From Candidatus Saccharimonadota bacterium (GTDB lineage: Bacteria > Patescibacteriota > Saccharimonadia > Saccharimonadales > Saccharimonadaceae): a DNA stretch of 64,000 nt. The notes beneath the pieces were generated by a model that saw only the letters and a list, made by a program, of their open reading frames with translations, was not told the DNA's origin and did not search any database. The position numbers and the translations under genes are program-made. The stretch lies in contig JAILQE010000012.1 of NCBI GenBank assembly GCA_024699125.1, forward strand, positions 90,263-154,262. The letters run 5' to 3'. This document shows, in pieces, positions 4,491-8,726 of this stretch (its first letter is position 1; the number at the start of each line of letters is the position of its first letter).

Positions 4491-5000
4491 ATGAAAATTA
4501 TTTTGGTGAGACATGGGGAGACGGATTGGAATTTGGAAAGCCGCCTGATGGGGCAGACTGATATTCCACTGAATAAACACGGTATCGAACAGGCTCACAC
4601 TTTAAAAGACAGTCTTGCGGGTGTTGAATTTGACTGTTGTTTTTCTTCGCCACTACTTAGAGCTAAGGAAACTGCTGATATAATTCGCGAAGATCGAAAC
4701 TGCGATGTTGTTTGCGATGATTTATTGATGGAGCGTTTTGGCGGCAAGTTCGAAGGACAGGTTCTTGATAGTTGGGCTGAAGTCACAAAGGACGAAACCG
4801 CTGAGACTTCGGATCAACTCCTGGACCGCGCACGAAATTTTTTCGAAAAACTCAAAAAGACAAAGTGCAACGCCGTTTTAGTCGTTACTCATAATGGTAT
4901 CCTCAAAAATCTACGCCACGTAATCAAAGGCAATACTGGCCCACTCGATTATCATTCTGATAGTTTCAAAAACTGCGAATTCGAAGTCTACGAGATTTAA
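4491..5000 (+). CDS. Histidine phosphatase family protein (phosphoglycerate mutase-like)
   Basis: The 169-aa protein opens with ILVRHGETDWN, the catalytic RHG motif whose histidine is phosphorylated. The second conserved histidine is in VVTHNGIL (about residue 130). The fold family covers cofactor-dependent phosphoglycerate mutases, alpha-ribazole phosphatases and broad phosphatases. The substrate cannot be told from sequence, and the short length fits the phosphatase branch better than glycolytic GpmA. TATAAT lies six nt before the ATG, so the mRNA is probably leaderless. The stop codon shares TTAA with the convergent leuS stop. Confidence 0.9.
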   Translation: MKIILVRHGETDWNLESRLMGQTDIPLNKHGIEQAHTLKDSLAGVEFDCCFSSPLLRAKETADIIREDRNCDVVCDDLLMERFGGKFEGQVLDSWAEVTKDETAETSDQLLDRARNFFEKLKKTKCNAVLVVTHNGILKNLRHVIKGNTGPLDYHSDSFKNCEFEVYEI

Positions 5001-7378
5001 GCAACAATATTTACAAGTTTAGCTTTTTTGACAAAGATTACTTTCTTTGGTTCGCCGGAAACGAATTTCTTTACTTTTTCGTTTTCAAGAGCGAGGGATT
5101 TGATCTTTTCTTCGTCTTCAATGTCTTCGGCTGGCACGCTGAGTTTGGCGCGGAGTTTGCCGTTCACTTGGACAACGATTTCGACGGTGTCAGAAACTAA
5201 GTGTTTATCATCCCAAGTTGGCCATTCGTCGTCGGCGCCAAGTTTTTCGAGCATTTCAGAGGCAAGATGTGGGGCAAATGGCTTCAAGAGTTTGGCGAGG
5301 GCGACAAGGTCGTCGTTTGACACGCCAACTTTGTAAAGCTCGTTCACGTATTCCATCAATGCAGCGACAGCCGTATTGAAGTTGCAGCGATAAATGTCTT
5401 CGGTAACCTTTTTGATCGTCTTGTGGCGAGCTTGTGCGGTCTGCACAGGTTCAGCTTTTTTAGCGTCGGCAAAGCAGAGGCTCCAGCATCGGTTGAGGAA
5501 GCGATAAACGCCACCCACCGAGCGTGGATCCCAAGCAGCATCGAGCTCGACTGGGCCAATAAACATTTCGTAAGTACGAAGCGTATCGGCGCCATAGCCA
5601 TCATTGATCACATCAAGCGGATCGATCACGTTGCCTTTGCTCTTAGACATCTTTTTACCATCCGGTGCGTTGATGTAGCCATGATAAATCAATTTCTTGA
5701 TTGGTTCGCGGAATGGCAAGAAACCTTGGTCGGCAAAGAATTTGCACCAGAAGCGAACGTAGAGCAAGTGAGCCACAGCGTGGTCGGCACCTACGTATAC
5801 ATCAACTGGTTCCCAGTACTTAATTGCTTCTGGATTCCAGGCGTAGTTATCATCATGTGGTGAAGCATAGCGCCACAAGTACCAGCTCGAGCAGGCGTAG
5901 CCATCAAGCGTATCGGTTTCGCGGGTCATTTCTTCGCCATCGATTGTGACTTTGAGCCAGTCTTTGCATTTGGCAAGGGCGGAGCGGCCAGTGTTGTCTG
6001 GTTTGTAATCCTCAACTTCTGGGATCATCACTGGAAGTTGATCTTCTGGAATGGCATGTGGGTTGCCATCTTTGTCGTATGCAATTGGAATTGGACAGCC
6101 CCAGTAGCGCTGGCGAGAAATCAACCAGTCACGCATCTTGTAGGTGGTTTTTGGTGAGCCAATACCGCGTTCGCCGAGCCATGCATTGATTTGTTCGCGG
6201 GCATCTTCGGATGCGGTGCCGCTAAATTGGCCAGAGTTTACCAGTACGCCTTCGCCGTGATAGCAGGCACTATCGTCGTCGGAATTCTCTGGTTTTTCAA
6301 TAACTTTTTTAACTTTGAGATCAAATTTTTGAGCAAAATCGAAGTCGCGTTCATCGTGAGCTGGCACGGCCATCACGGCGCCTTCGCCGTAACCCATCAA
6401 TACATAGTCAGCTACCCAAATTGGCATTTCTTCGCCGGTTAATGGGTTAATCGCATAAGCACCGGTAAATACGCCGGTCTTTTCTTTGTTTTCTTGGCGT
6501 TCGATTTCAGATTTTTTAATCGCGTTCTTGCAGTATTCAGCAACTTTTTCGCGAGTATTATCGTTTACAAGTTCAGAAATCATTGGATGTTCTGGAGCGA
6601 GCACGATAAAGGTCGCGCCAAAAATCGTATCCACGCGAGTGGTGAAAACTTTGATTTCCTGCTGAGTGTCTTTGACGGCAAAATTGACGATTGAGCCTTT
6701 AGAGCGACCAATCCAGTTCTTTTGCATGGTCTTGATTTTTTCTGGCCAATCAAGGGCGTCTACTTCGTCGAGCAATTCATCGGCATATTCAGTGATCTTA
6801 AAGAACCACTGTTTCATTTTCTTTTTCTCGACTTCGTGACCACAGCGCCAGCAGCAACCGTTTTCTACTTGCTCGTTTGCTAGCACGGTTTGATCAACCG
6901 GGCACCACCATTGATAAGATTCTTTTTGATACGCCAAACCCTTTTTGAAGAGTTGCAAGAAGCACCACTGGGTCCATTTGTAGTAGGCTGGATCCGAGGT
7001 GTTGATTTCACGATCCCAATCGATTGCATAGCCAAGACGTTTGGCTTGCTTGCGGAAGTTGTCGATATTAACTTTGGTGGCACTTTGTGGTGAGGTGCCA
7101 GTTTTGATAGCGTAGTTTTCGGCTGGCAGACCAAATGTATCGTAGCCGAATGGGCGCATTACATTTAGTCTTTGCTGCGCATAAAAACGTGACAACACAT
7201 CCACGATGGTGAAGTTGCGCACGTGGCCGACATGAAGGCCTGCACCAGATGGGTATGGGAACATCTCGGCGAGGAACATTTTCGGCGCGTCAGATTTTTC
7301 AGTTGCTTTGAATGGCTTCTCGCTTTCCCAGCGGGCTTGCCACTTTTCTTCAATTTTGATTGGGTCGTATCTTTCCAT
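4997..7378 (-). CDS. leuS: Leucyl-tRNA synthetase
   Basis: At 793 aa this class I synthetase charges tRNA-Leu in the cytoplasm. The HIGH signature appears as GLHVGHVRN (about residues 48-56) and KMSKS as DGKKMSKSKGNV. The CP1 editing domain is present, with TTRVDTIFGA and VMAVPAHDERDF. A CxxC zinc-binding element (CCWRCG) is visible near residue 177. It is somewhat shorter than the roughly 860 aa of E. coli LeuS. TATAAT sits exactly six nt before the ATG and just downstream of a strong terminator, so leuS has its own leaderless promoter and is not a continuation of the upstream RNA unit. Confidence 0.98.
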   Translation of the reverse strand: MERYDPIKIEEKWQARWESEKPFKATEKSDAPKMFLAEMFPYPSGAGLHVGHVRNFTIVDVLSRFYAQQRLNVMRPFGYDTFGLPAENYAIKTGTSPQSATKVNIDNFRKQAKRLGYAIDWDREINTSDPAYYKWTQWCFLQLFKKGLAYQKESYQWWCPVDQTVLANEQVENGCCWRCGHEVEKKKMKQWFFKITEYADELLDEVDALDWPEKIKTMQKNWIGRSKGSIVNFAVKDTQQEIKVFTTRVDTIFGATFIVLAPEHPMISELVNDNTREKVAEYCKNAIKKSEIERQENKEKTGVFTGAYAINPLTGEEMPIWVADYVLMGYGEGAVMAVPAHDERDFDFAQKFDLKVKKVIEKPENSDDDSACYHGEGVLVNSGQFSGTASEDAREQINAWLGERGIGSPKTTYKMRDWLISRQRYWGCPIPIAYDKDGNPHAIPEDQLPVMIPEVEDYKPDNTGRSALAKCKDWLKVTIDGEEMTRETDTLDGYACSSWYLWRYASPHDDNYAWNPEAIKYWEPVDVYVGADHAVAHLLYVRFWCKFFADQGFLPFREPIKKLIYHGYINAPDGKKMSKSKGNVIDPLDVINDGYGADTLRTYEMFIGPVELDAAWDPRSVGGVYRFLNRCWSLCFADAKKAEPVQTAQARHKTIKKVTEDIYRCNFNTAVAALMEYVNELYKVGVSNDDLVALAKLLKPFAPHLASEMLEKLGADDEWPTWDDKHLVSDTVEIVVQVNGKLRAKLSVPAEDIEDEEKIKSLALENEKVKKFVSGEPKKVIFVKKAKLVNIVA

Positions 7379-7394
7379 GAAAATATTATACCAT

Positions 7395-7427
7395 AAAAAT
7401 CACCTTGCTACTAGATGTAGCAAGGTG
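7395..7427 (-). terminator. Rho-independent terminator of the RNA unit upstream of leuS
   Basis: Reading the minus strand, an 11-bp perfect stem (CACCTTGCTAC / GTAGCAAGGTG) with a five-base loop is followed by ATTTTT. It separates the RNA unit from the leuS promoter a few bases downstream. Confidence 0.9.
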
Positions 7428-7752
7428 TATGTAAAAGGGTTTTTAGGCCCTTAATGTACAATGTGCGCCACGCGGTCGCACACTATTCCTCAACCTTTCG
7501 GTAATTTAAGCACAGCGGAGATTTATTAAATCAGTATTCCTATGTTTTTCAACACATATGGTCCTTATTGTGCGTATTACCGCGTTTCCTCCCCGACTCA
7601 CTCCTTGGCGACTCGTAAGCTCGCATTTCAGTCGTCCCTACTTTGCGACGGGATTCGATTTTAACTTTCGACCGCGTGGGTTACATTGTGTTTTACATCT
7701 CCAACTGCTTAGGAGGACATGCCATGGCCATTTTTGAGACTGGAGGCCAGGC
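7395..7752 (-). ncRNA. Unassigned structured RNA, unit 2 of a tandem pair
   Basis: This stretch of about 355 nt has no convincing ORF. It is bounded by a near-consensus promoter (TTGACA at 7782-7787, 17-nt spacer, TAAACT at 7759-7764) and by the strong terminator at 7395-7427. It is rich in short stems. A GAGGAAACGCGGTAATACGC stretch recalls RNase P conserved regions, and GTGCGACCGCG weakly recalls a T-box. Neither assignment holds up: the RNase P 3' core is absent, the UGGN needed by a T-box is absent, and leuS has its own promoter. The size and strong promoter fit a stable housekeeping RNA. The alternative is a regulatory leader of a very short transcript. Confidence 0.5.
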
Positions 7753-7758
7753 TTTAGT

Positions 7759-7787
7759 AGTTTATCGTAAATCTAAATTATTGTCAA
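7759..7787 (-). promoter_or_regulatory. Promoter of RNA unit 2
   Basis: A perfect TTGACA -35 box, 17-nt spacer and TAAACT -10 box on the minus strand directly follow the terminator of RNA unit 1. The predicted start is near 7752. Confidence 0.75.
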
Positions 7788-7791
7788 TACT

Positions 7792-7828
7792 AAAAAAGAG
7801 AGGGGCCCCGCAAAGAACACGGGACCCA
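7792..7828 (-). terminator. Rho-independent terminator of RNA unit 1
   Basis: On the minus strand a GC-rich hairpin (GGGTCCCG / CGGGGCCC) is followed by CTCTCTTTTTT. It lies between RNA unit 1 and the promoter of RNA unit 2. Confidence 0.85.
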
Positions 7829-8164
7829 AAGGAGGTTTCATGATCGTAAGACAGCCCGACCATGAAATAACGAACTGCGCGTGTCGTGAGATAAACTCAC
7901 GAAGCATTTCGGGGTTTTGTATCCCATCCCTATTAGAGCATCCTTAACCGACCACAATACTCGGAAGCCAAACGGCCATCCAGTGCAATCCTTATAGGGA
8001 GTAATACAAAAAGCGGTCTCGCATTACAAGGACGCACCGAGTGACTGCCCAGCCTCTTTTTTCATGGTACCCTACTCTGCTTACGCGCTATGCTAAAGAA
8101 CAACGTCTGGGAATCGAAGACTTAAGAGGAGATTCTTTTGGCCTCACACAATGCACACCAGACG
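7792..8164 (-). ncRNA. Unassigned structured RNA, unit 1 of a tandem pair
   Basis: A perfect promoter (TTGACA, 17 nt, TATAAT) starts a transcript of about 370 nt that ends at the 7792-7828 terminator. The predicted 5' end forms a helix (GCGTCTGG near 8164 pairs with CCAGACGT near 8105), as expected for a structured RNA. No credible protein is encoded on the minus strand; the longest obvious ATG frame is 13 codons. I looked for tmRNA (CCA end, T-loop, tag ORF), SRP RNA (GGTCAGG..GGAAGG loop) and the RNase P cores and could not place them. The unit is real as a transcription unit by its signals, but its identity is unknown. Confidence 0.5.
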
Positions 8165-8169
8165 CTATA

Positions 8170-8198
8170 ATTATACAATCCGATTATGGTGGTGTCAA
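8170..8198 (-). promoter_or_regulatory. Consensus promoter of RNA unit 1
   Basis: TTGACA (8193-8198) and TATAAT (8170-8175) are separated by exactly 17 nt on the minus strand, a perfect sigma-70-type match. It is back to back with the plus-strand extended -10 (TGCTATAAT, 8205-8213) of the methyltransferase gene. Confidence 0.88.
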
Positions 8199-8219: not shown

Positions 8220-8726
8220 ATGGAAATCATTCTAGTATTAGATAATATCCGCTCCACGTACAATGTGGGTGCAATTCTCCGTTCGGCAGAGGGTTTTGGT
8301 GTGTCTAAGGTGGTTTTGTCTGGTTATACCCCTCGTGTGCATGATAAGAATCTACTGCCGCATCTTCGCGCTAAGCTCGATAAAGAGATCCATAAATCTG
8401 CCCTTGGTGCGGAAGATATGCTAGATATTTATTCGTCTGGTGATATAATTTCGGACCTAAAATCATATGCGGCGTCAGGGTACCAAATTGTTGGACTCGA
8501 AAATAACATTCCGGATAAAAAACCGTTTCTTCTCTGTAGTAAAGAGATGAAAAGCCAACTTAAAGATAAAATCGTGCTGGTTTTAGGGGAAGAAGTACAT
8601 GGTATTGATTATTCTCTGTATGATATAATTGATCTTTTTGTTGAAATCCCGATGAAAGGCCAAAAAGAATCATTCAACGTTTCGGTGGCGGCAGGCATCG
8701 CACTGTTTGGTTTATGCTATAATTAG
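8220..8726 (+). CDS. SpoU/TrmH-family RNA 2'-O-methyltransferase
   Basis: The 168-aa protein fits the SPOUT fold. It has the N-terminal DNIRSTYNVGAILRSAEGFG (motif 1 with the N..GAI.R signature), VLVLGEEVHGI (motif 2) and SFNVSVAAGIALF (motif 3, knotted SAM site). Members methylate ribose in tRNA or rRNA; the target here is not evident. The ORF track starts at 8151, but ATG 8220 is six nt after an extended -10 (TGCTATAAT) and begins the family domain directly, so I place the start there, leaderless. The glycosyltransferase gene begins three bases after its stop. Confidence 0.92.
   Translation: MEIILVLDNIRSTYNVGAILRSAEGFGVSKVVLSGYTPRVHDKNLLPHLRAKLDKEIHKSALGAEDMLDIYSSGDIISDLKSYAASGYQIVGLENNIPDKKPFLLCSKEMKSQLKDKIVLVLGEEVHGIDYSLYDIIDLFVEIPMKGQKESFNVSVAAGIALFGLCYN

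Follow-up and report, generated by a model that had tools for sequence, protein, structure and literature searches.

The 64-kb stretch of Saccharibacteria DNA analyzed here (hereafter the window) contains, between leuS and a TrmH-like methyltransferase gene, two adjacent promoter-terminator units, A and B, which are very probably real, lineage-restricted non-coding RNA genes. In its fullest form this reading, to which we give a probability of roughly 0.6, holds that they are two independent, structured and fast-evolving RNA genes without detectable relationship to each other, restricted to a small clade within the gut Saccharibacteria, and most likely acting in trans. Each RNA (about 370 nt for A and 360 nt for B) would be transcribed from a strong promoter of the sigma-70 type up to an intrinsic terminator, and both would most likely act as a ribonucleoprotein scaffold or a regulator through conserved islands, not as leuS leaders. 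We infer transcription and abundance from the strength of these signals, while action in trans is suggested by independence from leuS, size, structure and the conserved islands.

Locus and architecture of the two units

At about 840 bp, the gap between the two genes is larger than any other coding-free gap in the window and, as the sequence-only reading had proposed, two back-to-back promoter/terminator units are present in it upstream of leuS, both on the minus strand and each in the order promoter, RNA, terminator (Table 1). The name of the TrmH-like gene was given from its sequence alone, without a family scan. The G+C content of the units (49 and 45%) is close to that of the window (46%) and the locus lies inside a 154-kb contig, which makes contamination look unlikely.

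Table 1. Positions in the window of the features of units A and B and of the neighbouring genes; RNAs, folds and terminators are predicted
Feature	Position	Strand	Basis or remark
leuS (neighbour)	4997..7378	-	own TATAAT 6 nt before its ATG
Unit B RNA, ~361 nt, strongly structured, non-coding	7392..7752	-	fold versus shuffles
Unit B intrinsic terminator	7401..7427	-	11-bp perfect stem and T run; pairing probability 1.0
Unit B long-range helix enclosing branched domain	7458..7689	-	arms 7669-7689 / 7458-7478
Unit B promoter, TTGACA-17-TAAACT	7759..7787	-	hexamers 12/12 identical in L051
Unit A RNA, ~369 nt, structured, non-coding	7795..8163	-	fold and L051 homologue of 366 nt
Unit A intrinsic terminator	7803..7827	-	10-bp GC-rich stem and T run
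Unit A core, conserved islands TTGTTCTTT; GCGYAAGCARAGTARGGTACCAT; GTCGGTTAAGRA; CAAAACCCYGAAAYGCTYCGT	7893..8105	-	alignment with L051
Unit A promoter, TTGACA-17-TATAAT	8170..8198	-	12/12 consensus; hexamers identical in L051
TrmH-like RNA methyltransferase (neighbour, divergent from unit A)	8220..8726	+	94% identical protein in L051

The promoter of unit A is one of only two perfect consensus matches on both strands of the window. The predicted fold of its RNA is more stable than those of dinucleotide shuffles (z=-2.6), the strongest hairpin being that at 8056-7964. For unit B the difference is larger (z=-5.4, with 0 of 100 shuffles equally stable), and its predicted fold includes a long-range inverted repeat of 21 nt with a perfect 11-bp core, which closes about 190 nt and is paired with a probability of 0.97-1.0.

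The suggestion that the units are tandem copies was not borne out, since local alignment, pair-profile and covariance-model tests of A against B all gave similarities at shuffle level; despite their near-equal size and same orientation they are therefore best treated as two different RNAs. Both contain TGWAATGCGAG at an equal offset and similar GCARAGTARGG stretches, yet given these tests we did not retain them as paralogues. An RNA duplex between A and B was also considered and found not convincing (-181.7 versus -156.6 +/- 8.8 for mononucleotide shuffles, one of which reached -190.9).

The neighbourhood of leuS and the TrmH-like gene is itself variable within the genus (L009-L037), where some genomes have tiny gaps and others a glycosyltransferase gene, a Sua5-like gene or further genes between or adjoining the two.

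Comparison with a sister species and distribution among relatives

Scanning GTDB genomes with the TrmH-like protein identified a sister species, uncultured Saccharibacteria SRR10912535_bin.71 (L051), in which the 494 bp upstream of TrmH, up to the end of the contig, cover all of unit A and run into the beginning of unit B. A search for leuS in this MAG was negative, which prevented the completion of unit B, and for that unit the comparison takes in the promoter and the first ~45 nt of the RNA, where the contig ends. Within this extent the layout is conserved in the second species, each unit having its own promoter and unit A also its own terminator, as would be expected of non-coding RNA genes.

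All 24 positions of the promoter hexamers are identical between the window and L051, as opposed to 15 of the 34 spacer positions (44%; 7/17 in the promoter of unit A and 8/17 in that of unit B; Fisher p=2e-6) and to 68% of the fourfold sites of neighbouring genes (p=2e-4). The terminator of unit A retains its ten pairs through four one-sided changes. RNA A is also of near-equal length in the two species (369-371 nt in the window and 366 nt in L051), and the L051 RNA is likewise predicted to fold better than its shuffles (z=-3.2). The 5' hairpin of unit A, GUCUGG/CCAGAC in the window, reads GUCUAG/CUAGAC in L051, and a second helix, UGGCC/GGUCG, reads UGACG/CGUCG; in each, both sides carry one change. 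With two sequences only to compare, possible covariation in unit A amounts to one double change in each of these helices, beside the retained terminator pairing. The hairpin at 8056-7964 is not conserved in L051, which has a 28-nt deletion there.

The RNA itself is far less conserved than these signals: 152 of 301 aligned positions of RNA A (~50%) are identical versus 173 of 254 fourfold sites (68%; p=3e-5), which means that most of RNA A is under no visible sequence constraint. Its best stretch has 30 of 40 positions identical, whereas pairs in which one partner was shuffled reached at most 25. Judged from this alignment, constraint acts on the transcription signals and on some islands, such as GCGYAAGCARAGTARGGTACCAT and CAAAACCCYGAAAYGCTYCGT, and the rest of RNA A changes very fast: the hexamers are identical, the terminator pairing is kept and RNA A is about 50% identical overall.

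The distribution of both units is narrow. DNA and covariance-model searches of 174 congeners recovered unit A in the genome of the window and in G204 (taken to be the genome of L051, because it has the same 208-bit score), while the covariance model of unit B recovered the genome of the window alone. Beyond L051/G204, DNA searches of the 174 congeners, 380 genomes sampled from the phylum, phages and plasmids gave promoter-like pieces only, with no other carrier among the 380, and pattern searches of viral contigs gave either no matches or matches inside a phage protein gene. In the searches of the congeners with covariance models of unit B and of the hairpin of unit A, two weak matches to the model of unit B were rejected, both being located in regions with long ORFs, and the other weak matches to the pair model of unit A were within chance for 174 genomes. 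The idea of an RNA class found throughout the CPR is therefore not upheld, with one other species carrying unit A among 174 congeners, though more distant relatives could be hidden by the fast divergence. The relatives identified through the TrmH-like protein are Saccharibacteria, many of them from the ruminant gut, including Candidatus Nanosyncoccus alces, which bears out the lineage guessed in the sequence-only reading.

Alternative explanations

Unit B has the same orientation as leuS and its terminator precedes the leuS start by 23 bp, an arrangement that would suit a T-box-like leader or attenuator (perhaps including unit A) whose terminator responds to leucyl-tRNA charging by opening. 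We consider this improbable. As in T-box leaders (RF00230), unit B is structured and its terminator is just upstream of leuS, but Rfam searches up to E<=10 yielded no genuine match to this family or any other, and the terminator of unit A is far upstream of leuS. In addition, a TATAAT-like box is located 6-13 nt before the start in 23 of the 28 leuS upstream regions examined (chance ~3% each), including many without units A and B, and leuS thus probably has a promoter of its own and is leaderless (window positions 7379-7391), which would make unit B a separate unit and not a leuS leader. The TrmH-like gene has the same leaderless-type arrangement (TATAAT, 6 nt, ATG).

That the units are instead mRNAs for short peptides is scarcely credible: small ORFs do exist, such as ATGAAAAAAGAG... 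(13 aa) in unit A, but in L051 the ATG and frame are lost, and the indels between the two species are not multiples of three. ORFs within the region amount to 40-66 aa, and the earlier statement that the units carry no protein is in this respect confirmed. Hardly more probable is that one of the known families (tmRNA, RNase P, SRP or 6S) is represented here in a very diverged form. The length of the units does fit tmRNA and RNase P RNA, and no small SRP RNA was found in the whole genome with RF00169 at E<=0.001; the SRP models, however, matched neither unit, and Rfam searches gave nothing at gathering thresholds in the region and chance matches only at E<=10, both here and in the L051 sequence, in agreement with the sequence-only reading that no known RNA family is represented. 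Its proposal that one unit could be a highly diverged tmRNA fails, because the genome has its own tmRNA (83 bits) and RNase P RNA (226 bits, RF00010) on another contig, C8. Furthermore, ARAGORN recognized no tRNA-like domain in the units, and they have no conserved frame of the tmRNA tag-peptide type, the 13-aa ORF of unit A being lost in L051. The units resemble tmRNA (RF00023) in being independent promoter-terminator RNA genes of ~370 nt, and class A RNase P RNA in size and branched fold, differing from both in the lack of a model match. They may also be compared with OLE, ROOL and GOLLD (PMC12286853), being likewise orphan, strongly structured non-coding RNAs, with a long base helix and a branched head in unit B; at ~360 nt and without an Rfam match, they show a likeness in kind only and no sign of homology.

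A decaying or selfish piece of non-coding DNA, the remnant of an old insertion or gene that has kept promoters and terminators by chance, would account for the restriction of the units to one clade, for RNA A being less conserved than fourfold sites and for the variability of the leuS-TrmH gap among congeners, many of which have Sua5-like or other genes there. We nevertheless regard it as unlikely, given that the promoter hexamers are perfectly kept while their spacers diverge, that the terminator pairing is retained, and that RNA A has near-equal length and an above-chance fold in both species. The genome is also gene-dense, and tblastn with the products of the ORFs neighbouring this site in congeners revealed no remnants of Sua5 or other neighbouring proteins in the gap. 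Real, lineage-restricted non-coding RNA genes remain our preferred reading of units A and B.

Another candidate RNA unit beside the TrmH-like gene

Upstream of the TrmH-like gene and divergent from it, two congeners whose TrmH proteins are 77 and 76% identical to that of the window (L054 and L064, respectively) have a different non-coding promoter-terminator unit (L054:3602-3950 and L064:3490-3949, both on the minus strand). It is 75% identical between the two, as compared with 19 of 49 TrmH fourfold sites (39%; p=1e-6), folds well in both (z of -4.5 and -3.0), matches no Rfam family and has no detectable relation to unit A or B. Beyond its promoter, it was found among the 174 congeners only in G196 and in G184, where the match to the L064 query is 100% identical. 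This looks like a new RNA family, better conserved than units A and B.

It is conceivable, though doubtful, that the slot beside the TrmH-like gene is a nursery of structured RNA genes with a fast turnover, in which at least three types without detectable kinship (A, B and that of L054/L064) occur. If so, these types would have arisen there or diverged past recognition, and would constitute new families of RNA whose roles are specific to their clade and may be linked to host interaction or RNA modification.

The non-coding RNAs of Saccharibacteria and other CPR bacteria are hardly described: our literature search found no papers devoted to them, and just two non-coding RNAs are listed in one report of a complete genome (PMC8830319). 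That a small genome of the parasite type holds two large orphan RNA genes with clear signals, and that relatives have a further type at this site, indicates that RNA genes of these bacteria escape standard annotation, and the units offer concrete targets for RNA work. Three other short promoter-terminator units beside genes in congeners, L091:3500-4000 (minus strand), L091:7400-7860 (plus strand) and L052:4480-4960 (plus strand), were considered as non-coding RNAs and set aside, as they have Shine-Dalgarno-like sites and the appearance of small protein genes.
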